Source: a virus. Taken from it: a stretch of 44,593 bases of DNA. Each line of letters begins with the position of its first letter. Position 1 is the first letter of the stretch. The notes beneath the pieces are model-generated. The model saw only the letters and a program-made list of their open reading frames with translations. It searched no databases and was not told the origin of the DNA. The translations under genes and the position numbers were made by a program. Below are positions 8,627-38,625 of this stretch, in pieces. The stretch spans positions 1 to 44,593 of the IMG/VR virus record IMGVR_UViG_3300021963_000221; one strand, written 5' to 3'.

Positions 8627-8646
8627 CAGTAATTAATAAAAAAGAT

Positions 8647-9081: not shown

Positions 9082-9089
9082 TAATCTAT

Positions 9090-9097
9090 TATATTTG
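9090..9097 (+). promoter_or_regulatory. Bacteroidota-type -7 box before the fibre genes
   Basis: TATATTTG within the recurring 11-mer TATATTTGTAT, directly after the terminator and 44 bases ahead of the ATG at 9142. No TTG is present at the usual -33 spacing because that position falls in the terminator stem. It probably drives the three fibre genes. Confidence 0.6.
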
Positions 9098-9141
9098 TAT
9101 TAGACAATTAGTGTGCAGTATACTGTACCTCCCATTCTGTA

Positions 9142-9828: not shown

Positions 9829-9847
9829 AACTAAATAACTAAATAAA

Positions 9848-11848: not shown

Positions 11849-11853
11849 TATTA

Positions 11854-19704: not shown

Positions 19705-22700
19705 TTATTCTTCTATAGGATTATCCCGCAAGTATTGTTGTCTCCACTCTTTTCTTCTTCTCTTATCTTCTTTGCTTTCTGTACTCATCTGTTTGTATTC
19801 TGCTGGATAATTTTCTTTCATATACCTCTTCAGTTCTTTGTCTACTTCTCTACTAAGTTGCTGTGATAAAGAGTTCATATTTTTCTTATTTGTATTTACT
19901 CTATCCAAGAATTTATTAGTCTTAGCTAACTGTTCCATCTTTAGTTCATTCTGAGCCATCTGTTCAAGTACTGCTCTTCTTTCTTCTGGATCAGATACTC
20001 TATCATTTCTATTTAAAGTAGATAAGCTTTTCTTAAGATCAGCAGTTTCTGTCTCTAGTTTTTCATATGATCCAATAGGATTAGTAGCAAGCATAGAAGA
20101 CTCTGAAAGCATTAAGCGTGGATTATACTTTAAAGTATTATACAACTTACGTTCTGTATCCATATAAGGAGCTACAGCTACGTCTAAACCTGTGTATAAA
20201 GCTGCAGCTGCAAAAATAGCAGGAGCGCCAGCAAGAAACTTAGGTGTCATCTCACTCTTAATACCTGAAGAATTCTCATAATAAAACTCACCTGTTAAAC
20301 CTTTATCATAAAGTGTAGTAATAGGATCAAACAAAGCTTGATTAGATGCACTGAAAGTTCCTGATACAGTACTCCAAGCTAACTGTTTAAATGTAGCTTC
20401 CCATCTTCCATCACCAGGTTGCTTAACAGGAGGAACAAAGAATGTTTTGTAAGACCAATCTGCTGCCCCAAGTACATTAAATGAACTTAATTCATCATAC
20501 ACACCTGACATTATTAATGCTGAGAACATAGCAGTTTTTAATTCATCTGCACAATCATCATCATCACACTCTGCTTGTTTAGAAGCAATAAACAACATTA
20601 AGTATTTAAATGCAAGTTTAGCAGCGGCTGCACTAGCTAAAGACATTCCTACATTCTTAAGTCTACGTTTATCTCCGGGAGAGATATTATCAAACCCTCC
20701 TCCTAGAGCTAACATCTTCGTCCTATCAAATAACGTTCTATTATATCCTCTTAGAATGTCTCCTGTATTTAACTGGTAACGAGTATCTCCGTACTTGTTT
20801 ATGGTCATAGGGGCTAACCACTTTTTCATATTCATCAATACTTCTAAAAGAAACTCTTTATGATAGAATGCTCTACCTCTTTGGAAATAGTTACCTTGAG
20901 TTCTTGTATAGTAAGTAAATATTCTATCCCTTATACCTTGTTCTAGTCTAGAAATATCTTGTACTTGTACTCCTTGTTTAAGGACTAGTCTTCCGTCTTT
21001 TTGATCGTATGCATCCCTAAGCTTAATTGTTCTTACTACTCCGTTCTCTACTATGTCAACATAGTATTGCTCTATGATTGCTTCAAAGACTGCAAGAGTA
21101 CTTATAGTTTCAAAAGCTCCACGAACTGCAAAACCCAAAGTATCAAAAGAAAGATTCCTTCTTATAAAAGTTTGATTAATTCTATGAGATTTTTCAGAAG
21201 CTATTGCAGCTGGGTTAGCTTCAAAGTGCATAAGCAAATCAGCATAGTAACTTACGTTAGCTCCACCTAAACTAATATCTCTTGCTGCTATCCAGGATTG
21301 TTTACTAATTGCTCTAGTAAGTGCTTTACTAAACTCTTTTTTACTTACTCCTGCAATACCTCTACCTAAGTAAACGTTCATTAAGTTGACCATTAAGTTC
21401 TTTATAGATGAAGTAGTATTTATCTGAAGTACTCTTCTACTACCTGCTTGCATTGCTACCCTAAGCGCTCTTACTGTTCCGTCTACAATAGAGTTTGTTC
21501 TTGTTCCGATAGCTTCACCATAGAAATCTTTTGCAATCTCATTGTCTATCATCTTAAGTGTGTTCGGATCTACTATGTTTTTTTCATCCAAGATATCTCT
21601 TGTAATAAAAACAGTAGGCATAATAGTCTTAAGGGCATCAAACTGCGAAGAGTATGCACCATACTTTGCAATGTTTCCTAAGATATCAAAAGATACTTCT
21701 GCTTCACTTAAAGGTGTAGTAAATCTAGTTCTAATTAACTGGCGTTTTCTCTTTTCAAACACTGATTGTTTTTCTTCAGGAGCTAATGCATCCATCTCAT
21801 CTGAAACATCAGGAAGGAAAGGAGCAATAATACTTTCATACAAAGCAGAGTAAGAACCTTTAGAGAAAGGACTTCTTAAAGCACTTTGAGTAGATTCCCA
21901 TAAAGTTTTTCTACTAGGTACTAAAGCATAACCCATTCTCTGACCTTTAGGAATAGATCTTTGAACATCTTCCTGTAAAGCAATGATGTCATCTAAAATA
22001 CTTCTCTCTTCTGCACTAAGTTTTGAGTATTCCTTATTTACAAATCTACCGTCTTGTGTCTCTCTAGGAGAAGGTTTGCCTGTAAATCTATAATCTTTAT
22101 TCTTAAACTTATCTTGAATAGTAGGAATAGCCCACTTAAATGAAGGTAACTCTGTATTTATAAACCTTGGATCATTAGGAACTGTCTCAGTCCACATATA
22201 TAAAGGCTTAGTAGTAGTGTAAGTTACTTCTTCTCCCCTCTGAGTCTTCTTTGTTTCTGTTGTTGTTATGTGGTTATTAATATACCAATCTGTTTTTACG
22301 TAACGTTTGTTTACTTCTTGACTAATAACATCTTGTTTATACTCTTCTAAGTCAGCAAATACACTTGCAGCTCCCATAGCAAGATCTATCTCAAGCAATG
22401 CCTTTGCCTTATCTTCTACAGAATCCATAAACTCTTGATCATTTTCTACTTGTGATCTTATAGTTCCTTGAATCTCTTGTACTTTTTCTGTATAATAACT
22501 TGTATTTTTTCTAGACTGTAAAGCACCTAACTCTTTAAATAAACGTTTTAGTTCTGTTTTATCTTCAATACTTAACTGTCTATCCTTGTTTACTTTAGAC
22601 TTTATATCTTCTATGTCTAATTGTATTTTCTTTAAGGTATCACGAAGTCCCTCAGTTCTTTCTACATCTGAACCTTGAATAACACCATCGTTGTCTCTAA

Positions 22701-25700
22701 ATCCAAGAACTGCATTAAATAAACGATCATATAACTCACCTAAATCAGTTTCGTATTGATTAGGATACTTAGCAAAAATCTCACGAATAGAATCAGTTAT
22801 GTTTTTCTGTTCCGCAAAAAACTCGTCTGTTAATTGTGATCTAGTATTCTCTTCATACCAAGCATTCCTTTCGGCTACAGCTTGATTATATTCGTTACGA
22901 TATCTTTCTTTATCTGCTAATAACTGTTGTGCTTTAGGATCTTTTTCAATCTGACTAGGTTCAAAGAAATCTGTTAGTTCTAGATTCTCTACTAAGTCTA
23001 ATCTTGCTTGTGCTTTCTTTACACGGTTTTCTACTTCTTTCTTCTCTGAAGACCACTCTGTCATCTTTGATGAGTAGTCGTAAGTAATAACATCTTCGTC
23101 TCTTCTTTCTTTCTTCCACTCTATAATAGAATCTGCTATTAGTCTTTCTTTGCTTCCTGCAGGCTTCTCATGACCATTGATATCATAGATAGACCCTAAG
23201 CGATTAAAGTCCCTTAGAAGTTCTTTAATACGGTCATTATCAGCAGGAACTTCTTGCTGAGCAATAGCAATCTCATCTAACAACTCTTGTCTAGCATTCT
23301 TAGCTTCAGGAATTAACTTACGTTGAATCTCATTGTACTCATCCGTATATGGACTCTGTGCGTACTTATCTAAGAAATCTTCTAAATCTAATCTTGCTTG
23401 ATCTGCTTTTGTAACATCTCCCTCTTCAATTGCTTTTTGCACTAAGCCTTCAAGTCTATCAAACTCGTTCTCGAACTCTGCATATAATAACTTAGTATTA
23501 AGTACTGCTTGTTTGATTGTTCTCTTCTTTCCATTCTCATCTAATACAGTCTTTTCTACTATACGATAGAATCCTTTGTATAGATTCTTAAAAGAGTCTA
23601 AGTTTATTGCAACAGATCCTCTAAGTTCTCTTAACCTGTTATAGATTTCACTTGCTCTAAAACTAAATGTCTGAGATGAAATAGAAGCTTCTGAAGTAGT
23701 CTTGTCTATTAGTTGTTTGATAAGTTGTATTGTAGGATTGTTAGCATGGATTGCTGTATTAAACTTCACACCCAACCAACTAGTTTCTTGTCCTACTACA
23801 GTATCGCCAGATAAAATTCTGGCAATGTTTTCTTCTGTAGGTTGAAAACTTACAAACTGTTCTAATTCTGTAATTCTTTTAGTTATTGCTCTTTCTAATC
23901 TTTTTTTACCTTTGGCTTTTGCATTTGCAAGTTGCTGTTGTAAAGATCCAATCTCTTCTGCATAAACCCTTTTAGCTTCTGTTACTGCTCTTGAGTCAAT
24001 CGCTTTAGCTAGTCTTCGTGCTACAGGTCTAACTACTTTGTTTGAAAAACTATCTTTAATAGAACTAATGCTACTTGTAGTTTCTTTTAACATAGAATCT
24101 AGGTTAGCCATAACAGCAAGAATACCTGGAACAGTATCTTCTAAAGCTTGCATTGCTTCTTCTCTTAGTGCTTCGTCTTCTATAGCACTAAAGTTATACA
24201 TGTTTCTAATCTTCTCGTTAAACTCTCTATAGTGACTCTCAATAGTTAAAGCAAGATTCTTAGCACTATTGTAAGCGGAAATGATAGCGTCTTCAGTAAA
24301 TTCGCCTTCGTTGTTGCTGTATACTTCTAACTGTGCTTCTACCTTTTTAAGCAAGAAAGTAGCACTCTTAAGGTAGTTTATACTTGCTTCAAGAATCTTT
24401 TTAGCTTCTGGAGAATCAATTTTTTCAAACTCTGCCTGAAGTAAATCTAGACTTCTATTGTTAGGATCAACTTCTTTTAAATATTTTTTAAGTTCAGACC
24501 ATGTTCTACCTTGTAAGTTTTTCTTTACAAAATTTACTAAGTTAGCTAAACTAGGAAATTTCTCTGTGTCTGTGTTTCCATTAGGATTATAAGCACTAGA
24601 GTTAAATCTTAAAGTATACTCTCCTTCTGTTTTGGGAATGTCTTCTAAAGACAACAGGTAATCTAAGTATTCGTTAACACTATTCTCTATCTCTTGTACT
24701 GTAGGTAGGTCAGAAAAGTTACCTAAGAAAAATTCTTTAATAGCATCTACTATCTTCTGTACAAATGAAGTATCCTTAAGTTGCTTTTGATACCTAATCA
24801 ACTGTCCTCTAAACTGAGGATTAGACATAAACTCACTTGCAAACTCTTCTACACTTGTAAAGCCATAGTTAGTAGAAAGAATAGGAAACTTCTTGAGGTA
24901 ACCTTCAAAGGCTACAGTCATCTTATTCTTAAAAGCAATCTCCTGTGGTGTAGTAGGTTCATTAAGAGCTTTAATAGTGTAAGAGTGCATTGCTTCGTGA
25001 ATAACATCTATAGCAAGTTTAGAGTTATCCATATCATCTAATACAGCCTTACCTATATAGATTGTGTTTGTCTTGTTGTCATAGAATGCTACTTGACTTC
25101 CTTCTTCTCCGATAGCCCTATCAAAGACTGCAAGCTTTAAAGAAGTGTTTACTTTTCCTAGGTCTTTAAGTCTACCTATAATTTCTTTTTGGAAGGGTTG
25201 TAGATTTTCAGAACTCTCTAATGCATCTAACACACTCAAGAGATCTAACTCTTCTATATTACCTAAGTTAGATACAATATCTCCAAAGTTTAAATTCTTT
25301 AGATCATCTAGGGTAACAGGATTTCTATCACTTGTAGTAGGCTTGTATTGAATCTTAAAACCAGTTTCTGTTCTTACTACTTTTGCACCAATAGCATCAA
25401 AGCGAGGATTTAAGTTAATCTCTGCTGCTACTGCACTAGCTTCAGTATAGTTAGAAAACTCATAGGTATTATCTACAGTTTCTGCTAACTCTTCTAGTTG
25501 TCTAGCACTTGCTAACTGTTCTTCTGTAAGATTTAAGTTAAGTAACTTGTCTACTGTCTCCATACTAGGTTCTCCTGAAAATCCTAAATCAGGAGTTCTT
25601 TCTGTATTAGTAGTCCAGTCAAACCCAAGTAATTCTTTAAAGCCCTCTGTATACATTGCATTGTATATGTCTATGGCTTCTTCTTTAGGATAGAAGCTAG

Positions 25701-25773
25701 TTAGTTGGTAGTACACATGAGATTCTACTCGTTTACCAGTTAAGGGAGATATGATTGATGCTCTACAAGCCAT
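19705..25773 (-). CDS. Giant virion protein with putative Zn-metalloprotease domain
   Basis: 2,022 residues. The N-terminal 250 residues have no recognised family. A gluzincin-like motif H259-E-A-M-H263 in an AIDVIHEAMHSYT context, with a downstream SVEEFASEF helix (E310 or E314 as third ligand), marks a putative zinc protease. Residues about 350-1300 are extended coiled-coil-like helices rich in Glu, Lys, Arg and Gln. Two hydrophobic Ala-rich segments near residues 1708-1728 and 1844-1868 suggest membrane interaction. It is one of three adjacent giant genes, including the virion RNA polymerase. crAss-like virions are known to carry giant cargo proteins that are ejected with DNA; protease activity and ejection are inferred here. 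Confidence 0.75.
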   Translation of the reverse strand: MACRASIISPLTGKRVESHVYYQLTSFYPKEEAIDIYNAMYTEGFKELLGFDWTTNTERTPDLGFSGEPSMETVDKLLNLNLTEEQLASARQLEELAETVDNTYEFSNYTEASAVAAEINLNPRFDAIGAKVVRTETGFKIQYKPTTSDRNPVTLDDLKNLNFGDIVSNLGNIEELDLLSVLDALESSENLQPFQKEIIGRLKDLGKVNTSLKLAVFDRAIGEEGSQVAFYDNKTNTIYIGKAVLDDMDNSKLAIDVIHEAMHSYTIKALNEPTTPQEIAFKNKMTVAFEGYLKKFPILSTNYGFTSVEEFASEFMSNPQFRGQLIRYQKQLKDTSFVQKIVDAIKEFFLGNFSDLPTVQEIENSVNEYLDYLLSLEDIPKTEGEYTLRFNSSAYNPNGNTDTEKFPSLANLVNFVKKNLQGRTWSELKKYLKEVDPNNRSLDLLQAEFEKIDSPEAKKILEASINYLKSATFLLKKVEAQLEVYSNNEGEFTEDAIISAYNSAKNLALTIESHYREFNEKIRNMYNFSAIEDEALREEAMQALEDTVPGILAVMANLDSMLKETTSSISSIKDSFSNKVVRPVARRLAKAIDSRAVTEAKRVYAEEIGSLQQQLANAKAKGKKRLERAITKRITELEQFVSFQPTEENIARILSGDTVVGQETSWLGVKFNTAIHANNPTIQLIKQLIDKTTSEASISSQTFSFRASEIYNRLRELRGSVAINLDSFKNLYKGFYRIVEKTVLDENGKKRTIKQAVLNTKLLYAEFENEFDRLEGLVQKAIEEGDVTKADQARLDLEDFLDKYAQSPYTDEYNEIQRKLIPEAKNARQELLDEIAIAQQEVPADNDRIKELLRDFNRLGSIYDINGHEKPAGSKERLIADSIIEWKKERRDEDVITYDYSSKMTEWSSEKKEVENRVKKAQARLDLVENLELTDFFEPSQIEKDPKAQQLLADKERYRNEYNQAVAERNAWYEENTRSQLTDEFFAEQKNITDSIREIFAKYPNQYETDLGELYDRLFNAVLGFRDNDGVIQGSDVERTEGLRDTLKKIQLDIEDIKSKVNKDRQLSIEDKTELKRLFKELGALQSRKNTSYYTEKVQEIQGTIRSQVENDQEFMDSVEDKAKALLEIDLAMGAASVFADLEEYKQDVISQEVNKRYVKTDWYINNHITTTETKKTQRGEEVTYTTTKPLYMWTETVPNDPRFINTELPSFKWAIPTIQDKFKNKDYRFTGKPSPRETQDGRFVNKEYSKLSAEERSILDDIIALQEDVQRSIPKGQRMGYALVPSRKTLWESTQSALRSPFSKGSYSALYESIIAPFLPDVSDEMDALAPEEKQSVFEKRKRQLIRTRFTTPLSEAEVSFDILGNIAKYGAYSSQFDALKTIMPTVFITRDILDEKNIVDPNTLKMIDNEIAKDFYGEAIGTRTNSIVDGTVRALRVAMQAGSRRVLQINTTSSIKNLMVNLMNVYLGRGIAGVSKKEFSKALTRAISKQSWIAARDISLGGANVSYYADLLMHFEANPAAIASEKSHRINQTFIRRNLSFDTLGFAVRGAFETISTLAVFEAIIEQYYVDIVENGVVRTIKLRDAYDQKDGRLVLKQGVQVQDISRLEQGIRDRIFTYYTRTQGNYFQRGRAFYHKEFLLEVLMNMKKWLAPMTINKYGDTRYQLNTGDILRGYNRTLFDRTKMLALGGGFDNISPGDKRRLKNVGMSLASAAAAKLAFKYLMLFIASKQAECDDDDCADELKTAMFSALIMSGVYDELSSFNVLGAADWSYKTFFVPPVKQPGDGRWEATFKQLAWSTVSGTFSASNQALFDPITTLYDKGLTGEFYYENSSGIKSEMTPKFLAGAPAIFAAAALYTGLDVAVAPYMDTERKLYNTLKYNPRLMLSESSMLATNPIGSYEKLETETADLKKSLSTLNRNDRVSDPEERRAVLEQMAQNELKMEQLAKTNKFLDRVNTNKKNMNSLSQQLSREVDKELKRYMKENYPAEYKQMSTESKEDKRRRKEWRQQYLRDNPIEE

Positions 25774-25810: not shown

Positions 25811-28800
25811 TTAACCTAAATCGCATGATTCTTCTAATCCTAAGGAATTATTTGGAGTATTAGTAGACTGCTGAACATCATAATTAGAAATACCTTCAGA
25901 TTTAATATCTTCAAGCATTTGTCTGTACAGAGTTGCATGTCTATCAATTGTTTCGTCTGAAACAGCTGCTCTATCTTCTCCCCTAGCTAACTGTGCTTTA
26001 ATTCTTTCTTTAGCTAACTCTGGGTTTAATTCCATTAACTTATATTGGATATTAGCTGAAGGAATTGCTTTTCTAATAGCTGTAATAAAAGGTCTTCTTT
26101 TTTCTTTAGTTAGGTTAGTTGTATCAAATACAACTTGTTTACCTTCTTTTATAGCTTGTATAGCTCTTTTAGCAGCTTCTTTGTAAATTTCTTTATCTTT
26201 AGATTTATTATTTATATCTCCTGTAAATTCAACTCTCATTGCATCAGGTTCTATAACAACTAAATTTTGTTGAGGAAGTGATTTTACAAAAGTAGATTTC
26301 CCACTTCCAGAAGTTCCTATAGGCAAGATAACATCAGGTTTATTTTGATTTCCTATAGTAGATGTTTTCTGTCTCAATTCAGCAACAACTTCGGATAGTG
26401 ATACTGCATGTGATCCCTGACCTCTATCCATAAGTTTTTTAGAGTACAAAAGATTAGCACCATCAAGTTTACCTTGATTAATTTGATCAAGTATCCATGT
26501 TCTTTGTTCTGGTTTTACCTCTTGAAACTTATTACCAAGTAACCAATCTTTGTAATTCTGAGCAGCTTGAGCTACACTACTAGCTTTTATAGTTCCTTGA
26601 TATCCTCCTTCACTCCATGGATTACCAAAGTGTTCGTTAGCTGTAGCTGCAGAGGTTCTCATAGTATTAATTCCTTCTGCTGTATAAACTGGTCTAGACT
26701 CTAAGTCTCCTTTCCATTCTTTACTTAAATCTATCTTAGGTTTAACTTCTGTAATTTCAGCAACTTGAGTAGATAGTCCAGTAATTTTTCCTAACTGTGC
26801 AGCTAACTCAGGAAGTTTTAAATCAAAGGTTACTGCATTAGCATATACAGATGGGTAGTTTGTCCTAATGTTACCTAAGTTAAATAATCTATGAGGTATA
26901 TTAAGCAATTCGTTTAAGTAACTCATACCTGCAAGATAGATAGGCATTACTGTTTTATATTCTTCGTTTTCTAGATTCTTTCTAATGTCTTTATCTGCTT
27001 GAGTAGTATATTGCTCGTAAGCTTCAAAAGGTACTACTTGATTTAAACCATACGAGTTATTAGAGAAACCAAATTGAATAAAGTTTGCTAATCCTAGATC
27101 TTTAAAAAACTGAGATACTTCAGGTCTTACGTCATTCATACCCGCAAGGAAAGCTTTTTCGTATTCATTTATAAGATAAGAATCTAAGTTAGAGTTTCTT
27201 AGTTTAAAGATAAGGAACGGTGTAGATACCGTTGGCTTCTCTTCGTATAAGTTCTCAATTAAAAGATTCTTATTTATGTCTGGATAGTTTTCTTTGAGTG
27301 CTTTTAATCTCGCTAATAAGTTATTAGAGTTATTTTTTGCTAAGAATCCTTTCTCTCCAAAAACTTTAACTCTAACAGAATTACCTTCACTATCTACTCC
27401 TTGAGAATGTATAGTCAGTAAGATAAGATTATCTTTAATAGTCTTTGCTGCACTTACTTGATCATCTTGGGTATATAACTCTGATAGATTTAAAAAACGA
27501 TTGATTGCATTAAATACCATCCTATGTCCTGTAACAGGAAAAGCCTTATCAAGTAATCCTGATACAGTATCTGCTACGTTAAATGCAGAAAGAGCAGAAC
27601 GTTTAGTTAAAATGTCTAACCCCTCTTTATTAAAGGAATCAGCTATCTGTGCATACGTAAACTCTTCTGCTTCTTTTTGGTAAGAACTTTGGTAGCTTTT
27701 TGTATTGTAATCTACTAAAGCATTTAACTGTTGAATCTTACTTTGTCTGTCTCTTAAGTTTTGCAACATAGCTAAACTTGCAATGTCCTTTAATACTGAA
27801 GACTCTGTAGAGAAGAATGCATCTTTAACACTAGACTGAGTTAAAAGACCATTTGTAATGGCTCTAAATGGAGCTCTTTTACCTTGTTCTTTCTTAGCGT
27901 TTTTTATTTGCTCTACAGTCTCTCTAATCTCTTTATCAGATAATACAAGTTTATCAAATATGTTTTGTAAGGTTCTAGTTGCTCTTCTACTTTCTAATTG
28001 TTCTTTAGTGTAGTGCATCTCTGATTGGATGATACCTCTGTTCATCTCTTTCAATGCATACTTTACTATAGGACGATTAAGAAACTCTAAGGATTCTTTT
28101 ACAGGTGTACCTGAAAGAATCATAGCATGGAATAAAGGCGTTTTAACTTTATCTAGTCCTAACAAGATTAACCAATCTTCCTTAGCGATATCTACGTGCC
28201 CGTTAATACTCTCACTGATTACACGAGAGATACTAGTGCCATCTACAAGATCCTGCATACCTAAGGCAACACTACCGTCTTGCATAATATGTTGAGGCAA
28301 TATGTAGGAATTAGCAGCCTCTACATCAACGTATCTTAGACCAGCTATCTGGAATTCTTTTTGAATTGTGTTGATCTTAGCATCTATACTTAATGCTTTC
28401 TTAGCTTCGATGTTGTCAGAGTATACTCTGTTAGAAACTAAAAGATTAAATACTCCAGTAGAAGTTATTGGGTTGGAAGGAAGCTTATCAGCTTCTGCTT
28501 TTAGAATAGTGTTGGTATTAGGAAGTACAATCTTATTGTAGTTTTCTTCTAATCCCATAACACCTGCCATAACATTAATCAAACGGTTACCAGCAGCTGC
28601 CTCAAACTTATTAAAGTTAGAGTTTTCTGTTTCAAAGATTTCTCTCTGTAACTCCTTAAAGATCTTAAGTCCTTCTGCTACTTCACCTTCTTTTAACAGG
28701 TTTCTAATCTGTGCGTACTTGCTTTTTAGTTCTGCTTCTTTCTGCTCCCTGTCTAAATCTTTTGTTTGAAGTTCTTCTAGGTTAAAAGTTTTTCCAGTCA

Positions 28801-31800
28801 TACCAAGTAACGTAGACTCTTTAGTCTCCAACGCTTCTTTTAATGCCTGTATTTCTTTTTGTAACTCCTTAGATTTCTGATAGTTAGGAAGCTCTTCTAC
28901 AATACTCTGTATTTCTTTCTTTGCTTGACGCAGATATCTAAGTAATTGTACACTCTCTTGTCTTGTTGGTAATTCACTCTTGTACTGATCTAAACTGTAA
29001 TTTTCAGTTTCTACTAAGTTTCCTTGTCTGTCTATTACAGGTTCAAACATAGTTAACTTATCTATATCAAAGTCTCCTCCTGACTTAGCTACAATTCCTG
29101 CAGGTACAACAATAACAGGACCAGCACTAGTAGGTAAGAATTCCCTTACACGCATATACTCCATAGAGTTAAATCCTTGTACAGGAATACGTACTCCTAC
29201 TAGAATTAATTGTTTAGAGTTTTGTTCTACCCACTCCATCTCTTTGAGATTATCTGAAGTTAGGATAGCATTTAAGTTTTCTATTGTGCCTATGGTTTTC
29301 CCATTAAACTTTAATCTAAGTAAGCCAGAATGTTTCTTAGGATTAAAAGCAATCTTAACGTCTGCAGGTTGTGTTTTACCGTTCTCTACTCTATAGTTTC
29401 TAAGACCGTTAATACCAAACTTTTTAATTTGAGTCTCAGTAGGTTTCTTAAATCTTTGTTTACCTAATCCTGTAGAAGCTACTTGTACGTATGCTTCTCC
29501 ATGTAGCTTCTGAGAAATAATTCTGTTATTGATTACAGATAAGATAATGCCTTCAATTTCTTTTCTATTCTTAGCAGAATCAAGAGGATATAAAAGGTTA
29601 CCATTCTCGTCTACTTGAATATACCTCTTCAAAGAATCACTAACATTTCTGTTATCCATCTCTGTACGTAGGAAAGAAATAAACTTCTTATCATCAAACC
29701 CTGACAAACTACCATCAGGATTTTCTTCAAGACCTAGTTTGTTATACAGTTTTAGTTTTTCTATACCTACAAGATCTCTTAAGCTTTGACCATAGTCATT
29801 ATATAGTTGCTCTATCTTAGCTGCAAAAGAAGGACTTAGTTCTGTTAAAGAACCATCACTATAAAAGTCTCCGAATAACAACTTAACCATCTGAGTAGCT
29901 AAGGTTGCTTCATTCTTAAACTTAGGAGCAATATACTGTTGTTGTTTAAGATTAACTAGGTGCAGAGTAGTTACGTTATTCTCACCAATAGCTTCGTTTA
30001 CTTTTAACTTTAACTGTTCATTCTTAGAAGTTAAAGGTTGCTCTACGTAGAAATCTAAACTTTCTCCGTAGTTAGAAGCTTTTGATCCAGACTGAAAAGT
30101 AGCATAGTCAATGTCTTGAGTTAGCATACTTTTATTCAAACCCTCTAATTGTGTTCCTTGTATCATAGAAGGAATCAAGGGAGCCAAAGAATACTTGTGT
30201 AAAGCAACTAATCTAGGATCTTCTACTACTGAACCATAATGTCCTAACTTTAATGGAGGAAATCCTACATAGTTAATAGTATCCTTAAGGTCAGCTATCT
30301 GCTCATCTCTTTCTTCTGATTGAGGTTCTTGGTATAATCTAAATAACTCTATCTCATTAGTGTAAGCGTCTTCTTGTTCTTGACTCCATTGACCTATATT
30401 AATTAGATAGTTTCTGTAGAAATCAAGTGTAACAAGACCTTGTGCATCTGATTCCTTTGGGTTGTTTACATACTCCTTGTAAGTAACGTCATCAGGAAGG
30501 CCCATAGCGTTTCTGTAAGCTTCCCAATCTTCGGGTTTGAATGTATTTACATCATTGAAGATTACTGTCCTTACAGTGCGTCTAAATGGCTTAGTGATAT
30601 TAGATAAGACCTTCTGTAATCCATTAGTATAAGGACTACTGTTTAAAAAAGTATTAACTACAGGATTGTCATGAGGAACATATCCAGGAGAAGAAGTAAA
30701 GGGAATGCGTTTAAATACTTCTCGGTAGTCACCCTTAACTTGGAAGTTAGCAATGTCTCCTACAAATATTTTAAAGAACTCTGCTTTATGTACAAAGTCA
30801 TTTATAAAGTAGTTAGCAATAACATAGTCAAAGTTGTTTGCATTGATTGGTATCTTATTGATACCGGTATCCATAAACTTCTTTTGATTAAGCCTAGCAA
30901 TTACTGTATTTAATCTTTTTTCTGGAGAAGTAGGATTAGGCAATAACAAGTCATCAGGATATACAGCTTCCATAAGAGCTGTCTTAACTGCCTGAGTCTG
31001 TTGTTGAATGTACTCATCTAAGTACGTTTTTAAGTCTCCCTTAATGTTCTGATATGCAGCATCAATCTCTTCTTCTGTAGTAGCATTTACTAAACTTGAA
31101 TACAAGTCATCAGGAAGAATATCTTTAAATATAAAAAGATTCTTACCATTCTTATGGTAAGTACTCTTACCGGGATTACGTAGTAAGTCTTTAAGTCTTA
31201 CTGCTTCGCTCTTTAGATATTCAGTAAACTGTTCTACTACTGCATTACTAGCTTGAGGAACAACGGTTTCCCGTTCATTCATAATCTCCTCATCTAGTTT
31301 AAAGTAAATTCTATTTTCAGGTTTACCTGCTAGTACAGTAGCATAAGAAGTTCCCTTGTCACCAAATCGTACGTTTTCTACTATACCTTGAGAGAAGAAA
31401 GAAAAGAAATCTTGAAGGATCTTATCTTCAGGAGTTAAGCTAGTAGTAACTGAATTCTTTTTATGGTTACCAGCTATACTTACACCTGCATAGTTTTGAA
31501 TGTTTATACTAAAGGGTTCATTACTATAAGGAATGTTTTTCTTTTTAAATACAACTTCCCCTGTAAGTTCTGCTTGATTAAGTTGATCTATAATAGTCTT
31601 TAAGTCTTTTCTCTTAGTACTTACACCAAACATCTTTTCTAGCCAAAGAGATCCTATTACATTAGGGTTCTTTCTAATATCTAAATGTGCAAATTCTGGC
31701 TTAGCAATTAACTCACTATAACTACCTACACTATTGAGTGTATTAGAAATTTGGGTTAGATAAAAGTATTGAACCCTATTGTATTGTAATTTGTTTTCTG

Positions 31801-33505
31801 GGTTATAGTAAGAGCCAGAAGCAAACTCCCTCTCAAATTGTCCGTAAAACTTAACTAAAGTAGTTACTGAATCAGACAATCTTTTAAGAGGTCCTGGACC
31901 TTGATAAGTGTTAAGATAAGATAATAACTCTGTAACACTTGTCTTATCCTGACTATTAGCAAGTTTAGTATAAATAGAAGCAGTTTCTCCAGCAGTAGCT
32001 ATTAAGAACTCTTTAAATGCTGTTTTATTTGCTCTATATAAAGAGTTAGTAGGAATAATTCCTATGGCTTTATGAAACTTAAAAAGCTCATTCAATAAAG
32101 CAGTACCTTCAGTAGTGTCAAAATACTTAGGAGTTCTAATCTTAGTCATGTAAGTAGAAACCCTACTTGCAAGTGTTTCATTTCCGTAAGTAAATAACGA
32201 TACAAGTTTCTTTATATCTACAGCAGAACCATCTTCTAAGACTAAGTTAGGATTAGCAGAAGCATAGTCGGCATCAAAGTAATTAATAAGATTGGTTACA
32301 GTCTTTGTACCTAGTTCAAATACTTTAGTAGTGTAACTATTACCTACTATCTTCATTGATAGTTTTACTGCAGGAATCTCAGGCATAGACATTACCTGCT
32401 GAAAAGCTGCTGCAAGATTAGTATTGCTTAATGAAACATTTGTGTTGTCTGGTTCAGGTAATCTCTCGTATAAATTTCTAAACTGAGGATAGATAGTACT
32501 TAAGCTTTTGATCTCTTCCTTTAATTGATTATAGTCTGTTATACCTGTAAGACTTGCAGAAAGAAGATTCCAGTTCTTAGAGAAATCTCCTGTAACAGGT
32601 AAACCCAAAACAGAACCTAATACTACAAAGTCCTTTATAGATCTTTTACCTGAAGCTACTTCTTTTTGTTCTTTTGCAGAAAGTTTTTTATACTGTGGTA
32701 AGGCTTGAACTACTTTAATTACTTCAGCAGAAGCAAGTTCTTTCTGCCCTCTATCATGAGCATTCTTATTGTAAGTGCTTACTCCTCCTGTAAAGTCTTC
32801 TACGTCTATATCTGAATCATCTTTTTCTGTGTTAGATTCTTCTACACCTTTAAGCCCAAAAGTAGGCTCTTGAGCCTTAAACCAATCAACTACTGTGTCC
32901 CAATTTTTAGTTAGTAAGATTATATTAGTTGCTTGCTGTTGTTCTGCCTCTGTTACAGAGTCAGGGTCAGCCATAATCTTAGCCTTAATCTTTTCTTTCT
33001 TAGCATTAAGTAATCTAAGTACTTCAGAAGGTCCATAGTTTGCACTTAAAAAAGAAAGATTATCAAAAATTTCTGTACTCTCTTCTTCATTAAATATAAT
33101 AGGATCACCTTCTGTAGGAATACTAAGTACTATGCCATTAGGAGATTGTTCTGCTTGTAGGTTTCCTTGTTCTCTCTTTCTAATTTTTTCAGCTAACTCT
33201 TCTAAGTCTTGTTTTAAAAAGTCTATAGTGCTTCCTATCTCTTCTTCTCCGTACTTATCTTGGAACTCAGGCATAAGAGTTCTTGCAATAGCTTTTAAGG
33301 CTACAGTACGATCCCCTTCAGCTATAACATCAAGCACTTCATTATATAAAGGATTTACTTCCTCTTTGCCATCTACATCTATTTTATCTAAAGGCAAGTA
33401 GTTGTTTTTTCTCCATAAAAATAAAGCTAGTGTAGAACTACCAACAACTTTACTAAGTTCTGCAAACTCAGGAGTACTCTCATCAGGACAGGTTATTCTT
33501 GCCAT
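25811..33505 (-). CDS. Virion RNA polymerase (crAss-like, DFDID type) with C-terminal DUF4326-like and P-loop kinase-like domains
   Basis: 2,564 residues. The catalytic loop SGGDFDIDK has Asp1478, Asp1480 and Asp1482, preceded by GVRIPVQGFNSMEYMR and VVPAGIVAK. This is the signature of the crAss-like virion RNA polymerase (phage phi14:2 gp66), related to the two-barrel QDE-1-type polymerases, which enters the host and transcribes early genes. After the polymerase part, residues about 2275-2390 contain a DUF4326-like domain (NEHFGNPWSEGGY, then WILDQINQGKLDG and GSHAVSLSEV). Residues 2390-2550 form a polynucleotide-kinase-like domain: Walker A GTSGSGKST (2397-2405, Lys2403), PDAMR and VVFDTTNLTKEKRR. 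The start is the ATG 5 bases after a -7 box. Confidence 0.9.
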   Translation of the reverse strand: MARITCPDESTPEFAELSKVVGSSTLALFLWRKNNYLPLDKIDVDGKEEVNPLYNEVLDVIAEGDRTVALKAIARTLMPEFQDKYGEEEIGSTIDFLKQDLEELAEKIRKREQGNLQAEQSPNGIVLSIPTEGDPIIFNEEESTEIFDNLSFLSANYGPSEVLRLLNAKKEKIKAKIMADPDSVTEAEQQQATNIILLTKNWDTVVDWFKAQEPTFGLKGVEESNTEKDDSDIDVEDFTGGVSTYNKNAHDRGQKELASAEVIKVVQALPQYKKLSAKEQKEVASGKRSIKDFVVLGSVLGLPVTGDFSKNWNLLSASLTGITDYNQLKEEIKSLSTIYPQFRNLYERLPEPDNTNVSLSNTNLAAAFQQVMSMPEIPAVKLSMKIVGNSYTTKVFELGTKTVTNLINYFDADYASANPNLVLEDGSAVDIKKLVSLFTYGNETLASRVSTYMTKIRTPKYFDTTEGTALLNELFKFHKAIGIIPTNSLYRANKTAFKEFLIATAGETASIYTKLANSQDKTSVTELLSYLNTYQGPGPLKRLSDSVTTLVKFYGQFEREFASGSYYNPENKLQYNRVQYFYLTQISNTLNSVGSYSELIAKPEFAHLDIRKNPNVIGSLWLEKMFGVSTKRKDLKTIIDQLNQAELTGEVVFKKKNIPYSNEPFSINIQNYAGVSIAGNHKKNSVTTSLTPEDKILQDFFSFFSQGIVENVRFGDKGTSYATVLAGKPENRIYFKLDEEIMNERETVVPQASNAVVEQFTEYLKSEAVRLKDLLRNPGKSTYHKNGKNLFIFKDILPDDLYSSLVNATTEEEIDAAYQNIKGDLKTYLDEYIQQQTQAVKTALMEAVYPDDLLLPNPTSPEKRLNTVIARLNQKKFMDTGINKIPINANNFDYVIANYFINDFVHKAEFFKIFVGDIANFQVKGDYREVFKRIPFTSSPGYVPHDNPVVNTFLNSSPYTNGLQKVLSNITKPFRRTVRTVIFNDVNTFKPEDWEAYRNAMGLPDDVTYKEYVNNPKESDAQGLVTLDFYRNYLINIGQWSQEQEDAYTNEIELFRLYQEPQSEERDEQIADLKDTINYVGFPPLKLGHYGSVVEDPRLVALHKYSLAPLIPSMIQGTQLEGLNKSMLTQDIDYATFQSGSKASNYGESLDFYVEQPLTSKNEQLKLKVNEAIGENNVTTLHLVNLKQQQYIAPKFKNEATLATQMVKLLFGDFYSDGSLTELSPSFAAKIEQLYNDYGQSLRDLVGIEKLKLYNKLGLEENPDGSLSGFDDKKFISFLRTEMDNRNVSDSLKRYIQVDENGNLLYPLDSAKNRKEIEGIILSVINNRIISQKLHGEAYVQVASTGLGKQRFKKPTETQIKKFGINGLRNYRVENGKTQPADVKIAFNPKKHSGLLRLKFNGKTIGTIENLNAILTSDNLKEMEWVEQNSKQLILVGVRIPVQGFNSMEYMRVREFLPTSAGPVIVVPAGIVAKSGGDFDIDKLTMFEPVIDRQGNLVETENYSLDQYKSELPTRQESVQLLRYLRQAKKEIQSIVEELPNYQKSKELQKEIQALKEALETKESTLLGMTGKTFNLEELQTKDLDREQKEAELKSKYAQIRNLLKEGEVAEGLKIFKELQREIFETENSNFNKFEAAAGNRLINVMAGVMGLEENYNKIVLPNTNTILKAEADKLPSNPITSTGVFNLLVSNRVYSDNIEAKKALSIDAKINTIQKEFQIAGLRYVDVEAANSYILPQHIMQDGSVALGMQDLVDGTSISRVISESINGHVDIAKEDWLILLGLDKVKTPLFHAMILSGTPVKESLEFLNRPIVKYALKEMNRGIIQSEMHYTKEQLESRRATRTLQNIFDKLVLSDKEIRETVEQIKNAKKEQGKRAPFRAITNGLLTQSSVKDAFFSTESSVLKDIASLAMLQNLRDRQSKIQQLNALVDYNTKSYQSSYQKEAEEFTYAQIADSFNKEGLDILTKRSALSAFNVADTVSGLLDKAFPVTGHRMVFNAINRFLNLSELYTQDDQVSAAKTIKDNLILLTIHSQGVDSEGNSVRVKVFGEKGFLAKNNSNNLLARLKALKENYPDINKNLLIENLYEEKPTVSTPFLIFKLRNSNLDSYLINEYEKAFLAGMNDVRPEVSQFFKDLGLANFIQFGFSNNSYGLNQVVPFEAYEQYTTQADKDIRKNLENEEYKTVMPIYLAGMSYLNELLNIPHRLFNLGNIRTNYPSVYANAVTFDLKLPELAAQLGKITGLSTQVAEITEVKPKIDLSKEWKGDLESRPVYTAEGINTMRTSAATANEHFGNPWSEGGYQGTIKASSVAQAAQNYKDWLLGNKFQEVKPEQRTWILDQINQGKLDGANLLYSKKLMDRGQGSHAVSLSEVVAELRQKTSTIGNQNKPDVILPIGTSGSGKSTFVKSLPQQNLVVIEPDAMRVEFTGDINNKSKDKEIYKEAAKRAIQAIKEGKQVVFDTTNLTKEKRRPFITAIRKAIPSANIQYKLMELNPELAKERIKAQLARGEDRAAVSDETIDRHATLYRQMLEDIKSEGISNYDVQQSTNTPNNSLGLEESCDLG

Positions 33506-33540: not shown

Positions 33541-36500
33541 TTATTTTATGCTACATGAAGCAGCATCCTCTTGATCGTTTTCTTGTGCAGGAGTTATTGG
33601 ATTGTTCTGAGAACTACCCATCTTACCTGTAATGTTTTCTGTAAGAATGTTAAGCAAGTTAGTAGGAAGGGTTGTTACTACCGCATCCTCTACCACAGGC
33701 AAAGTACTTTCTAAAGAAGCTAGTTCTGCATCGTATTTAGCATTGATTTCTTGTTCAGTAGGATTTGTCCTGACTATAGGAGAATTATTTGCAACTATTT
33801 CAGTTATCTTTTCCTCAGTAAACCCTTGTTTTCTTAATTCTTCTTTAAGTGTATTCAAACCATCACTAACAGAATATTCTGATCTACCACCACTTGCAAT
33901 AAGTTTTCCGTCTGCATCTCTTACCTCAGGGTTGTATACATCTTTGTACTCCCCTTCAAAAAAGTTAGAATCATAAGTATACTCTCGTACTTGTTCTCCA
34001 TACTTAAATCTATACTTTTCTAGTTCCTCTTGCCTTTTTGTTTCTATTTCAGCCTTAGCGTCTTCCGTAGATATAGATGGAACTATTACTTCTGGTACAG
34101 AGGTAGGTGTTACATCTTCTTGAACAATAGGTTCTTGGTTATCTAACCCTAAAGAAATCTGTGGAGTTAACGAGTTCTTATGACCACTATTGTCAAAACT
34201 AATATACACACTAGTTTTAGACTTCTCGTAGTTTCCTTTATTACTAATCTTAGTACCACCTACAATAGATCCTGTAAAAGTCACAGGAGTATTTGTTACT
34301 ATATTTCCTCGTAAAAGATTTGCAGTAGGGTCTTCTTGGGGTAAAAACATTAAGGCATTCACCTTACCCTTACTGTCCTTATTTCCTTCTAAATTAAACT
34401 TGGCTATTTTATTGTTAGACTTGTTTGCAATTGTACTTACAATAGAATTAATCTGAAAGAATTCTGCTCGTGCATTAATTGGAACAGGAGTATACGGTTT
34501 AAAACTATTCTTGTCTACATAAACAATCTTTAGACTCTTCTTATTAATAGCTTCTAATTTACCATTTACAACCTTACCTGTTAACTCAACTGAATACTTT
34601 ATTACCTGATTACCTTTTACAAATTCTATAATCCCTTCTTTCTTTTTATAGGTAGTTGCAATCTGTATAGCACTTGCTGATTCAGTTGTAACTGTAGGTA
34701 TAGAAGAATCTGGTTTACCTTGTATAAACTGCTTGTTCCATATATACTCAAGCATCTCCTTTGCAAAAGTTCCTTCAGGAAAGATTGCCATAAATTCTTC
34801 CTTAAGTGCATCAATGCCTTCTTGGTTATCTTCGTCTATTGCTTGACCTACTTTCTTATATATGTTCTGTAAAGTTCCTAAGGCTCTCTTACCTACTGCC
34901 TCTTTAATAAAAGAAAACAGATCCATAACTTTAACTACATAAGATTCTGGTTTCTTATTTACTGTTCTTAGTATCTCAGACTGAGTTCCAGCATTAGAAC
35001 TTGCAAATACAGTAGGCGTAGTAGAACTTACACCTGTTTGTTCTGCATTTTGTGGCATAGGTTTTTCTACAGGTAATCCGTCAAACAACTCTTGTGGAGG
35101 TGCAGGAACAACTTCTGCAGGCAAATCTGTTGGGGGTTCTACTACAACTACTTCAGGTAAAGTAATGTCACTTACGGGAGCAGGAGGGGTTACTACTTCT
35201 TCTTCACCCGTAGTTATTTCTACAGGAGCAACTTCAGCATTTGTAAGTGGAAGGTTCTTTAACTTCTCCGCATTTACTACATTTAAGTATATACGATACA
35301 ACTCTCCAGGATTAGTAGGTTCTTTACCATCTAACAAACTGTTTAAGTCTTCTAGACCTTTGTTAACCGTCTCTGCATCAAAACCTAAAGCAGAAAACAA
35401 AGCTGTAAATCTAGACTTTAATTGTTGCTTAGACTTAGAAGAGTTAAGGGACTTAATAGCTCCAGCTATCTTTTCTTTCCTTTTCTTATTTGGGACATTT
35501 ACAACTTCTCCTTGCTCATTCTCTTCTTGTATAAACTCTGGCTCCTTTTGAAAGTTAGCAATAGCAGCATTCATTGCTGGATCTTTTTCATCAGGAACAA
35601 CTAAAGCAGTATCTTCTATTTTCTCGTCTTCTCTTACTATCTCTTTTACAGTTTCATCTACTACTTCTTTATGTTCTTCATCTGTTAGTTGGATATTAAA
35701 TACAGTGTTTACTGCACCCATATCAAAAGTTATTCCAGGTCTAATTGTTTCTAAGCGAGCAAGTTCTTTAGCAAGTACTTTCTTTTGTTCTTTTTTACTC
35801 AGCTCAGATAACTGTTGTTGTCCTAATCTAACAGCTGACTCAATTTTGTCGTTTAACTGTTTAAATACACTTTGACGAATATTTTCGGAATTGTCTCTTA
35901 ACAGTAAGGCAAGTTCAGTTGCTTTAGCAATCTGCATACTTTGTCCAAAGTCTTCTATAGGTGTGTTTAAAAGTTGATTCTCAAATACGGTATTACCATT
36001 GTCTTCAATAGACTGTAGTTGCTGTTTACGTCTTTGAATAGCTTCCATCATTTGATCTCTACCTGTTCTCATAACAGAAGATCCTTTACCTGAAAGCTCA
36101 CTTGCCATTATAGTTTTTGCAAGTGCTTCTTCATTTGCTTTTAATGCTGCAGGGTTATTTGTCTCTGATACTTGTTTGATGTTTCGAGTAATCATTTTCT
36201 CTAACACCTGCTCTCTTTCCTCTGGAGTAGATTCTGCATACTTAAGCGCAAGATTCTCGTAGTTGTCAATCTCCTTCTCTACGTTCTCTACTAAAGAAAT
36301 GTATTGCTCTTGTTGTTGAGCATCCATCTTCTCAAAGTCTAATCCCTTTTTAACTAGTAAGTCACTTCTTTGTAGTAAGGCACTAAAGTATCCAAACTGT
36401 TTCTCACTATCTTCTAGTAAAGTTTCTGGATCAACTAGGTTTAACATTACTCTATCTGCAGACTCTTTCAATTGAGTAAGTCTGTTTCCTTCTAGTATAG

Positions 36501-38625
36501 CTCTAGAGTACTGGTCCTTAGTAATCTCTCCTTTATCTCTAAGTTTAGTTAACTCCTCTTTAAAGATTCTAGGATTAGTAGCTACGTTAAATCTAATTAA
36601 ATTGTCATCTATCTTCTTTGAACTATAGACACTAGAACCTGTCATTATAGCACCTGCTGCTGCGGATTCTGCAAATGTCTTCCACATAGAACTTCCTATA
36701 GTCTCTAGACTTGTAGCATCTAGTTCTTCTGGAAGTTCTCCATACATGTCATCTTTTGTTTTATATATTTGGTTTAGTGCATAGTTAGCAAACATTGAAA
36801 TTTCTTCCTCTAGCCCTTCTTGTACAGTTTGTTTAATTGCAGAACCTGCTGCCAACAAAGTAGATCTAGCTGCTACTGAAAGTTTATTAAACTCTGGAAG
36901 TAAAGCAGTAGTTACAGCTGCTTTTCTTTCAGCTGCACTTAACGACTTAGTTGCTAGACTCTTAGAACCCATAAAGTATCCAATATCAGGTACAATAGAT
37001 TCTGTAAGTCCTTCAATAACTCCTTGGATTACACCTACGTTAAAAGCGTCTAATTTGCTTTTGTAGTTCTTCTTATTCTGATCGTAAGAACGTAAAGCAG
37101 AACTTGCTGCTACAGGAACAAATGTTGCTAATCTAGCACCTACTCCTGCACCCATTAATCCTTTTGTAATAAAAAGTGTAGGAGCCATTTCTGCAGCTGT
37201 ACGAACACTTAATCCGGGAAGAGATCCCCAGATATATTCTGTAGACTTTACTTTCTTTCCTCCTTCAATCTTTTCTTTAGTGTAAGTAAAGTTTTGACCT
37301 AGATACTGATAGTTTCCTAACTGATCCCTATCTCTTTCTGTAATTCTATTATCTCCATCTAAGTCGGCAAGAATCATATCTCCAGAGATCCACTTATCTC
37401 TAAAGTTATTCATACTATAATCAGAGACTCCGGGAACAAAAGGAAGAATAAAATTACTTAGTCCTTCTACTATAGGTTGAAGAATTTGTGTTTTAGTATA
37501 TATACCTGCTTTGTTTAAAGCTCCTGCTTCCCTGTAACGTTGAGATGTACCGTAGTAATAATCATAAGCATCTTCATTAGATTTTGCATGAGTATTATAA
37601 GTACGTTGTACTTCCCTTAAAGCTCCTTGTAATTCATTTGCTTTCTGAGGATCTGCTACCTGCATCTCCTCACTTAAGACTTTCATTAAACTAGCTATAC
37701 TTCTATCAGTATGATTGTAGTCTGTAAAGTCATTAGTTCCTATTCCTTCTTTTTTATATGATTCAAATACATCATTATCATAAAAAGCATCTCCTCTAGT
37801 TCTGTTCCTTTCTTGGGCTTTAATTAATTTTACTTGATCAATTAATCCTTTAGAAGTAGAAGAGTTAAAAGATTGTCCTTTTGCTTTTAAATTTGCAATG
37901 TAGTCTTCTGTTGCTTTCTTTATCTGAAGGTCGGACTTATACTGATTAATAACAGCTTGTTGTTTCTTAAGATCTTCTAATTCCTTTCCTAACTTATTTA
38001 TTCCAGTAACATCTGTATTAGCTCGTACTGTACCCATAGAGTACGTAGCATTCATTAGATTTGTTTTTGATGCTTCCTTTGCTTTTAAATAGTTTTCAGT
38101 AAGTTGACCTATCTTCTTATCTAACTCGTCAGACAAAGGATCTTCCATGCCATAGGTTTGGTCAATGATTCCTTTTGATCTTTGCTTTTCTTCTCCTACT
38201 GGATCTATTCCTGGAGTGGTTTTAACAGGAGCAGTATTACTAATAATCTTTCCATTAGGCAACTTTACTGTACCGTTATCTAATAATACACTTCCCTTAG
38301 GAGCACCTGCAACTTCTAACTTAGCAGTAGGAGTATTTGGAAACTGAGCACCTGTACTTTCCAAGTTAATCTTAGAAGCTACAGATAAAGCATTATCAAT
38401 CTCTGATGCTCTTCTTGCATTAGCTAATTTTATTTCTTCTAGTCTTCTTTCGTAAGAAGCTATCTCACTGTTGATTCTACTTACATTTTGTCCTCTAAAA
38501 TATTGAGAAGCTGCTGGTCCAGATAAGTTACCTCCAGATATTTGCCCAATACGAGTCTCAGGAATAAAACCTACACTAATAGGTTTTGATGCGGGTTTAG
38601 GATTAGGGGTCTGATTTTCAGCCAT
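33541..38625 (-). CDS. Giant virion protein with a dockerin/EF-hand-like calcium loop
   Basis: 1,694 residues, probably packaged and ejected with the other giants (inference from neighbours). A dockerin-like calcium loop starts at residue 421: DLDGDNRITERDRDQLG, with Asp at positions 1, 3 and 5 and the typical helix after it. An Ala/Gly-rich hydrophobic stretch at about residues 480-512 (LFITKGLMGAGVGARLATF) may cross or perturb a membrane. Most of the remainder is charged helix up to about residue 1070, then a Pro/Glu/Val-rich linker (near residues 1110-1200) and a C-terminal beta-rich region. No enzymatic motif was found. It precedes the polymerase by 35 bases. Confidence 0.75.
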   Translation of the reverse strand: MAENQTPNPKPASKPISVGFIPETRIGQISGGNLSGPAASQYFRGQNVSRINSEIASYERRLEEIKLANARRASEIDNALSVASKINLESTGAQFPNTPTAKLEVAGAPKGSVLLDNGTVKLPNGKIISNTAPVKTTPGIDPVGEEKQRSKGIIDQTYGMEDPLSDELDKKIGQLTENYLKAKEASKTNLMNATYSMGTVRANTDVTGINKLGKELEDLKKQQAVINQYKSDLQIKKATEDYIANLKAKGQSFNSSTSKGLIDQVKLIKAQERNRTRGDAFYDNDVFESYKKEGIGTNDFTDYNHTDRSIASLMKVLSEEMQVADPQKANELQGALREVQRTYNTHAKSNEDAYDYYYGTSQRYREAGALNKAGIYTKTQILQPIVEGLSNFILPFVPGVSDYSMNNFRDKWISGDMILADLDGDNRITERDRDQLGNYQYLGQNFTYTKEKIEGGKKVKSTEYIWGSLPGLSVRTAAEMAPTLFITKGLMGAGVGARLATFVPVAASSALRSYDQNKKNYKSKLDAFNVGVIQGVIEGLTESIVPDIGYFMGSKSLATKSLSAAERKAAVTTALLPEFNKLSVAARSTLLAAGSAIKQTVQEGLEEEISMFANYALNQIYKTKDDMYGELPEELDATSLETIGSSMWKTFAESAAAGAIMTGSSVYSSKKIDDNLIRFNVATNPRIFKEELTKLRDKGEITKDQYSRAILEGNRLTQLKESADRVMLNLVDPETLLEDSEKQFGYFSALLQRSDLLVKKGLDFEKMDAQQQEQYISLVENVEKEIDNYENLALKYAESTPEEREQVLEKMITRNIKQVSETNNPAALKANEEALAKTIMASELSGKGSSVMRTGRDQMMEAIQRRKQQLQSIEDNGNTVFENQLLNTPIEDFGQSMQIAKATELALLLRDNSENIRQSVFKQLNDKIESAVRLGQQQLSELSKKEQKKVLAKELARLETIRPGITFDMGAVNTVFNIQLTDEEHKEVVDETVKEIVREDEKIEDTALVVPDEKDPAMNAAIANFQKEPEFIQEENEQGEVVNVPNKKRKEKIAGAIKSLNSSKSKQQLKSRFTALFSALGFDAETVNKGLEDLNSLLDGKEPTNPGELYRIYLNVVNAEKLKNLPLTNAEVAPVEITTGEEEVVTPPAPVSDITLPEVVVVEPPTDLPAEVVPAPPQELFDGLPVEKPMPQNAEQTGVSSTTPTVFASSNAGTQSEILRTVNKKPESYVVKVMDLFSFIKEAVGKRALGTLQNIYKKVGQAIDEDNQEGIDALKEEFMAIFPEGTFAKEMLEYIWNKQFIQGKPDSSIPTVTTESASAIQIATTYKKKEGIIEFVKGNQVIKYSVELTGKVVNGKLEAINKKSLKIVYVDKNSFKPYTPVPINARAEFFQINSIVSTIANKSNNKIAKFNLEGNKDSKGKVNALMFLPQEDPTANLLRGNIVTNTPVTFTGSIVGGTKISNKGNYEKSKTSVYISFDNSGHKNSLTPQISLGLDNQEPIVQEDVTPTSVPEVIVPSISTEDAKAEIETKRQEELEKYRFKYGEQVREYTYDSNFFEGEYKDVYNPEVRDADGKLIASGGRSEYSVSDGLNTLKEELRKQGFTEEKITEIVANNSPIVRTNPTEQEINAKYDAELASLESTLPVVEDAVVTTLPTNLLNILTENITGKMGSSQNNPITPAQENDQEDAASCSIK

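Follow-up and report, generated by a model that had tools for sequence, protein, structure and literature searches.

The question raised by this locus is whether a virion RNA polymerase of a crAss-like phage carries accessory enzymes at its C terminus and, if so, what these enzymes would do once injected into the host. The window, that is, the whole stretch of DNA analysed here, is an IMG/VR virus record of 44,593 bases. Related loci, most of them from IMG/VR, are labelled with L numbers (L0xx to L1xx), with phage phi14:2 as L115. The protein of interest is encoded on the minus strand (25811-33505) by a single uninterrupted reading frame of 2,564 aa, which carries every motif named in the initial annotation of this DNA: SGGDFDIDK (starting at residue 1475), NEHFGNPWS (2290), SHAVSL (2365), GTSGSGKST (2397), PDAMR (2420), and DTTNLTKEKRR (2461).

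The polymerase and its virion status

The polymerase lies between two other genes for giant cargo proteins:

33541..38625, minus strand: giant cargo protein of 1694 aa encoded upstream, placed like phi14:2 g067; sole cysteine at residue 1691
25811..33505, minus strand: predicted crAss-like virion RNA polymerase, 2564 aa, from homology to phi14:2 g066 and gene order
26879..33505, minus strand: polymerase proper, residues 1-2209, common to the closest relatives L012, L015 and L016 (49% identity)
29060..29074, minus strand: DFDID catalytic motif, residues 1478-1482, from a motif match
19705..25773, minus strand: giant cargo protein of 2022 aa encoded downstream, homologous to phi14:2 g065 (E 1e-12), with an N-terminal Cys3

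The DFDID motif, the synteny with phi14:2, and the homology to g066 of this phage (23.7% over 621 aa, E 2e-21) together predict that the 2,564-aa ORF is a crAss-like virion RNA polymerase. The protein g066 is itself a characterised polymerase of this kind, and the gene block in the window matches the phi14:2 gene order g067-g066-g065. The proteins of the phi14:2 block carry annotations derived from MS/MS proteomics of virions, and virions of crAss001 contain RNAP subunits or RNAP-associated proteins (PMC10172136). The virion polymerase proposed in the initial annotation is supported by homology and synteny and, by analogy with phi14:2 and crAss001, the C terminus of the window polymerase would also be part of the virion. 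The similarity to phi14:2 extends to the catalytic core, the gene order, and the terminal cysteines of the giant proteins, but not to the two C-terminal modules described below, both of which are missing from phi14:2.

The C-terminal extension

The closest polymerases (L012, L015, and L016), which are 49% identical to the window protein over their whole length, align with it only up to residue 2204-2209. The remaining ~355 aa consist of a linker, a DUF4326-like module, a kinase of the polynucleotide kinase (PNK) fold, and a short tail:

26723..26878, minus strand: linker, residues 2210-2261, delimited by alignments
26360..26722, minus strand: DUF4326-like module, residues 2262-2382, with HFGNPW at 2292-2297; predicted from relatives and a model of pLDDT 87
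25871..26344, minus strand: PNK-fold P-loop kinase module, residues 2388-2545; predicted from profiles and a model of pLDDT 81
26291..26317, minus strand: Walker A motif GTSGSGKST, residues 2397-2405; K2403 and S2404 invariant in 22 relatives
26234..26248, minus strand: PDAMR, residues 2420-2424, with invariant D2421 and R2424, which align to D-x-x-R in the Clostridium thermocellum Pnkp (CthPnkp)
26093..26125, minus strand: DTTNLTKEKRR, residues 2461-2471; D, the second T, and N invariant
25970..25972, minus strand: Arg2512, invariant, candidate lid arginine
25814..25870, minus strand: C-terminal tail, residues 2546-2564, ending in ESCDLG and holding Cys2561

Since the alignments to the closest relatives stop at residues 2204-2209, the C-terminal segment is an addition to the polymerase. 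These closest polymerases lack the kinase both at their C terminus and anywhere else in their records, and it is also absent from phi14:2 and from every other cultured crassvirus in the comparison. Because the relatives end differently and the cultured phages lack the kinase, the C terminus of the polymerase is best described as a variable slot.

An error of assembly or reading could also produce a segment of this kind, be it a frameshift, a chimeric contig, or a C terminus that lies outside the protein. The contig is metagenomic, and a DUF4326-like module directly before the kinase is found in just two proteins. Nevertheless, the reading frame is continuous, the DUF4326-then-kinase order recurs in L056, the DUF module and the second half of the linker are common to L085, and the protein ends in a Cys-bearing tail, as do 26 of the 27 polymerase ORFs. 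An artefact is, on this evidence, extremely unlikely. A short form of the linker precedes many other DUF4326-like modules.

In place of the DUF4326-like module and the kinase, the closest polymerases (L012-L021) mostly hold ~170 aa with a metallopeptidase-like HEVKH or HEAKH motif, and the C termini of L015 and L021 bear one further module. Pfam assigns no family to the HEVKH/HEAKH region or to the extra module of L015 and L021.

The kinase module

The kinase region is matched by Pfam AAA_33 (E 6.9e-19, 69 bits against a cut-off of 27), by the polynucleotide kinase family PHROG 505 (E 1.5e-13), and by the NCBIfam model of bacterial Pnkp (E 2e-11). A profile search of the PDB with 22 relatives gave full-length matches to CthPnkp (4e-8), Pnkp1, seryl-tRNA(Sec) kinase, and T4 Pnk; a lectin repeat region, the nominal best row of this search, was discarded as a repeat artefact. 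The AlphaFold model of the module (pLDDT 81) retrieved polynucleotide kinases at all of ranks 1-12 in a Foldseek search of the PDB, with CthPnkp as the best match (E 2.9e-9, TM ~0.7), and the nearest solved folds are those of Clostridium Pnkp, Pnkp1, mammalian PNKP, and T4 Pnk. The PNK-like P-loop domain read from the motifs in the initial annotation is therefore confirmed by profile and structure searches alike. The active site suggested there, a D..R pair together with a lysine, is also found: K2403, D2421, and R2424 are invariant and the D..R pair aligns with that of CthPnkp. Also invariant across the 22 sequences, down to 62% identity, are S2404, D2461, N2464, and R2512, and the median dN/dS of 0.16 (105 pairs) indicates purifying selection. 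Given the profiles, the Foldseek matches, the invariant catalytic-type residues, and this dN/dS value, the module is predicted with high confidence to be an active phosphotransferase, which very probably belongs to the PNK group.

The kinase domains of Pnkp from C. thermocellum (PDB 4gp6/4gp7/4jst) and of T4 Pnk resemble the module in their P-loop fold (TM ~0.7), in their Walker A, D-x-x-R, and DxTN-type motifs, and in their size of ~150 aa. In Pnkp and T4 Pnk kinases, the D-x-x-R motif serves the 5'-OH substrate. The differences are that the window kinase is 24-25% identical to CthPnkp, that it is embedded in giant, probably injected virion proteins, and that the window protein holds no phosphatase or ligase domain. 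No phosphatase family is present among the Pfam or PHROG matches over the kinase region of this protein, which is therefore not a bifunctional Pnkp.

A toxin-like effector had also been considered in the initial annotation. A kinase of the zeta-toxin type would phosphorylate a cell-wall precursor and so weaken the envelope of the host, a role that has been suggested elsewhere among polyvalent proteins. Both polyvalent proteins and MuF fusions are reported to include kinases of this type (PMC5512222), and the Pfam Zeta_toxin family does match the kinase region (29.2 bits, cut-off 22.3). This match is far weaker than that of AAA_33, which outscores it by 40 bits; the nearest structures are PNKs, no zeta toxin occurs among the best 50 Foldseek matches or in the PDB profile list, and the DTTN motif aligns with its PNK counterpart. 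A zeta toxin appears very unlikely.

The DUF4326-like module

The resemblance to DUF4326 held up through relatives of the module but is undetectable from the window sequence alone, for which PF14216 gave no match at E<=10. Relatives of this module were found in 45 IMG/VR loci, and 27 modules were aligned. Among these homologous modules, 16 of 27 match PF14216 (best E 1.5e-6, with the curated cut-off reached in none of the records scanned) and 17 of 27 match phrog_464, a family that genuine DUF4326 proteins match at 1e-26 to 1e-33. A comparison by hhalign with a few DUF4326 sequences was weak (probability 3; P 0.005), so the homology rests on the Pfam and PHROG matches of the intermediates. The structural model (pLDDT 87) gave no match in a Foldseek search of the PDB and, in BFVD, DUF4326 proteins were among the top matches but at E 0.09 or worse. 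A joint alignment of both modules was dropped, as it misaligned the DUF rows onto the kinase, and the two modules were modelled separately.

Modules of this group share with DUF4326 (PF14216; phrog_464) the GNP motif, the helix pattern, and the terminal H motif. The canonical cysteines (CWC...CH), on the other hand, are invariant in genuine members and missing from all 27 modules, which hold no cysteine in 3013 aa, as compared with 24 in the 686 aa of five genuine DUF4326 proteins. The pattern argues for a kinship that is real but distant, the modules forming a predicted subfamily stripped of its canonical cysteines. DUF4326 has been placed in the rhodanese-phosphatase superfamily and proposed to act on ADP-ribose derivatives (PMC9503650, PMC7824862). 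Because the 27 modules contain no cysteine at all, a cysteine-based mechanism seems unlikely for this subfamily, and a role as a partner that binds nucleotides or nucleic acids is more likely for it than one as a cysteine phosphatase.

Shuffling of modules among giant proteins

Neither module is confined to polymerases. The kinase or the DUF module is present in 62 distinct stretches, nearly all of them within giant ORFs, and most of the giant proteins with these modules show no visible DFDID motif. A further 25 IMG/VR contigs encode the kinase, within proteins that measure about 450-5,300 aa (several of them incomplete) and whose flanking regions are unrelated, and no relatives of it were detected in 84,980 bacterial and archaeal genomes with a scan limited to two short peptide patterns. 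Its position can be before the polymerase motif (L005), directly after it (L061), or behind the polymerase (L041, L042, L048, L053, L059, and the window), and it otherwise occurs in giants without DFDID. In L005 (9986-10465) and L009 (9998-10477), the kinase fills the loop GWFRSD...TRRILE(V/L)QSD inside another conserved domain; in five homologs (L026, L075, L106, L107, and L110) the GWFRSD...TRRILE loop holds instead 45-98 residues of other sequence.

The modules can also receive insertions themselves. The kinase is split by an insert, with both halves in frame, in L010 (1314-1435 and 1570-1603) and L061 (1462-1583 and 1712-1750), and the DUF4326-like copies of L037, L039, and L085 are likewise split with their halves kept, a case of nested domain insertion. 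A truncated kinase in L010 and L061 was ruled out by an HMM search that found both halves around the insert, and an intein-like insertion by the lack of intein-type first or last residues in the inserts. The recurring linker sequence TQPSTSV was considered as a recombination site, but it occurs in just 7 of 143 giant ORFs, too few to support this role.

Such extreme promiscuity in position, including insertion within other domains and copies split by inserts, would suit a mere passenger, that is, an enzyme-dead or purely structural domain carried by a recombination-prone region. This explanation is improbable in view of the invariant catalytic-type residues, the median dN/dS of 0.16, and the fact that even split copies still hold both halves in frame.

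The history of the kinase can be compared with that of its carriers in those proteins that hold both, with the near-identical L041/L042 set aside. The polymerase cores (375 residues around the active site) are 23-44% identical, whereas the kinases of the same proteins are 61-88% identical. At synonymous sites the cores are saturated (pS 0.62-0.73, against 0.71 +/- 0.06 at saturation) and the kinases are below saturation (pS 0.39-0.57), which rules out slow evolution of the kinase as the cause of the gap in identity. In L041/L042, the pS is 0.08 for the kinase and 0.44 for the core. Since the cores are saturated and the kinases are not, the kinases go back to later common ancestors than their carrier polymerases do.

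The initial annotation had treated the two modules as parts of the polymerase. The extension is real, but the modules occur in many giants and, as judged from these sequence comparisons, are accessory cassettes shuffled horizontally among 'polyvalent', presumably injected giant proteins rather than features of the polymerase. Lateral exchange has carried the kinase between such giant proteins in many unrelated phages, so that the kinase is probably a payload for early infection and not a part of the transcription machine.

Proposed function and comparison with polyvalent proteins

The C-terminal ~355 residues are likely to be an accessory payload, formed by the linker, the cysteine-less DUF4326-like module, and the PNK-superfamily kinase, and acquired by horizontal shuffling. 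This segment would be synthesised late, packaged along with the polymerase, and ejected together with it, to enter the cell and then refold. Once in the host, both modules would come into play ahead of early transcription or while it is under way. Within the first minutes of infection, the kinase would transfer phosphate from an NTP to 5'-OH ends of RNA or DNA, e.g., ends produced by anticodon nucleases or by nucleases of the host defence, which would fit a role in end repair. The product might then serve the DNA ligase of the host; alternatively, the kinase might in truth act on a nucleotide. The chance that 5'-OH polynucleotide ends are the substrate is put at slightly under even.

PNKs that act in repair usually work with an RNA ligase. 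An RNA ligase (PF09414) was found in only 1 of 26 kinase-bearing records, many of which are fragments, and this low count is a point against polynucleotide repair, as is the failure to find a 3'-phosphatase domain in the window protein. The sole case is L116, the record of L010 (E 3.8e-16). The kinase could alternatively target a small nucleotide or an ADP-ribose/NAD-type molecule, as one member of an injected counter-defence set with ART and DUF4326-like modules. The scarcity of RNA ligases speaks for this option, as does L048, in which the kinase adjoins a Pfam ART-PolyVal domain (E 7e-10), and the companion modules of the relatives (ART, and DUF4326 with its link to ADP-ribose) fit a small-nucleotide substrate equally well. 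The nearest structures and profiles, however, are all polynucleotide kinases, the window kinase is accompanied only by a DUF4326-like module of the subfamily without canonical cysteines, and the SLOG-like modules spotted by eye were not confirmed by Pfam. A small-molecule substrate is, in consequence, considered rather unlikely. Helicase modules also occur in the giant proteins of the relatives.

Fusions of enzymes to virion polymerases are a known theme of polyvalent proteins, with N4-type virion RNAPs joined to metallopeptidase, ART, lysozyme, or RNase domains (Iyer et al. 2017, PMC5512222). Among the virion RNAP fusions reported in the passages of this source consulted, no PNK-type kinase or DUF4326 was found. 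The initial annotation had stated that no function was described for this combination of domains; the literature searched indeed contained no crAss-type polymerase with both a PNK-type kinase and a DUF4326-like module, although enzyme-polymerase fusions as such are not new. Similar to the window protein, the polyvalent proteins of phages and conjugative elements are large and multidomain, combine virion RNAPs with effector enzymes, vary in a cassette-like manner, and, as in the relatives of the window protein, include the ART-PolyVal domain; their injection into the host is predicted for the window protein as well. They differ in two respects. The N4 fusions involve single-subunit polymerases of the T7/N4 type, whereas the window enzyme is predicted to be a crAss-type two-barrel polymerase, and here nearly identical cassettes are found within very divergent backbones. 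The present case extends the polyvalent concept to a crAss-type virion polymerase, and the synonymous-site test indicates that cassettes encoding enzymes move from one giant predicted virion protein to another across distantly related phages. The case also provides a defined kinase module of 150 aa that can be directly expressed and assayed.

Terminal cysteines of the giant cargo proteins

The window polymerase contains only two cysteines, Cys6 and Cys2561 (of 2564), and these belong to a series that runs through the gene block. Cys1691 (of 1694) of the upstream giant is followed by Cys6 of the polymerase (codons 33553-33555 / 33488-33490), and Cys2561 by Cys3 of the downstream giant (25823-25825 / 25765-25767). 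The corresponding series in phi14:2 is 1797 of 1797 followed by 3, and 2179 of 2180 followed by 3. The pattern is also seen in L117-L120 and in most IMG/VR loci. Giant ORFs of this group contain 0.06% cysteine, as opposed to 0.7-2.2% for ORFs of 100-700 aa. In a set of 100 complete giants, 115 of 149 cysteines sit in the first or last 8 residues.

The junctions of neighbouring giant genes were classified by the presence of a cysteine in the upstream C terminus and in the downstream N terminus. With gaps of <600 bases, 66 of 72 junctions have a cysteine on both sides, 6 on neither, and none is discordant; with gaps of <200 bases, both sides carry it in 56 of 61. The cysteines are thus paired across junctions. 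In fused genes (jaberico, cr1_1), the inner pair is missing. In the Bacteroides phage DAC15, the first gene lies on the other strand, behind the block, and both its C-terminal cysteine and the N-terminal cysteine of the polymerase are kept. That both persist despite the relocated gene speaks for pairing at the level of the proteins.

A tentative model, somewhat less than even in its likelihood, is that the giants are free of cysteines except at their ends and that each C-terminal cysteine is coupled, e.g., by a disulfide, to the next N-terminal one, giving a head-to-tail train that would be ejected as such. Physical coupling through the terminal cysteines is a conjecture. If true, any inserted cassette, such as the Cys-free kinase or the DUF4326-like module without cysteines, would ride between two couplings. 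The cysteine pattern offers a testable handle on how several megadaltons of cargo are ordered and threaded through the tail of a crass-phage, and this side finding may be bigger than that of the kinase.

Other features of the window

A block of genes on the opposite strand occupies 910-12639 (plus strand) and includes the following:

910-1758, plus strand: DUF932 protein
2469-4439, plus strand: DNA polymerase I family protein
6487-7455, plus strand: PDDEXK-like nuclease, DUF3799
7891-8331, plus strand: dCMP deaminase family protein
9848-11848, plus strand: protein matching tail-fibre and head-decoration families

On the minus strand, positions 42709-43281 encode a 190-aa protein ending in RRWKC. 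Its last ~90 residues match the C termini of several families of long phage proteins (phrog_10346, 727, and 30733), and this end of the protein looks like a C-terminal domain shared by virion proteins.
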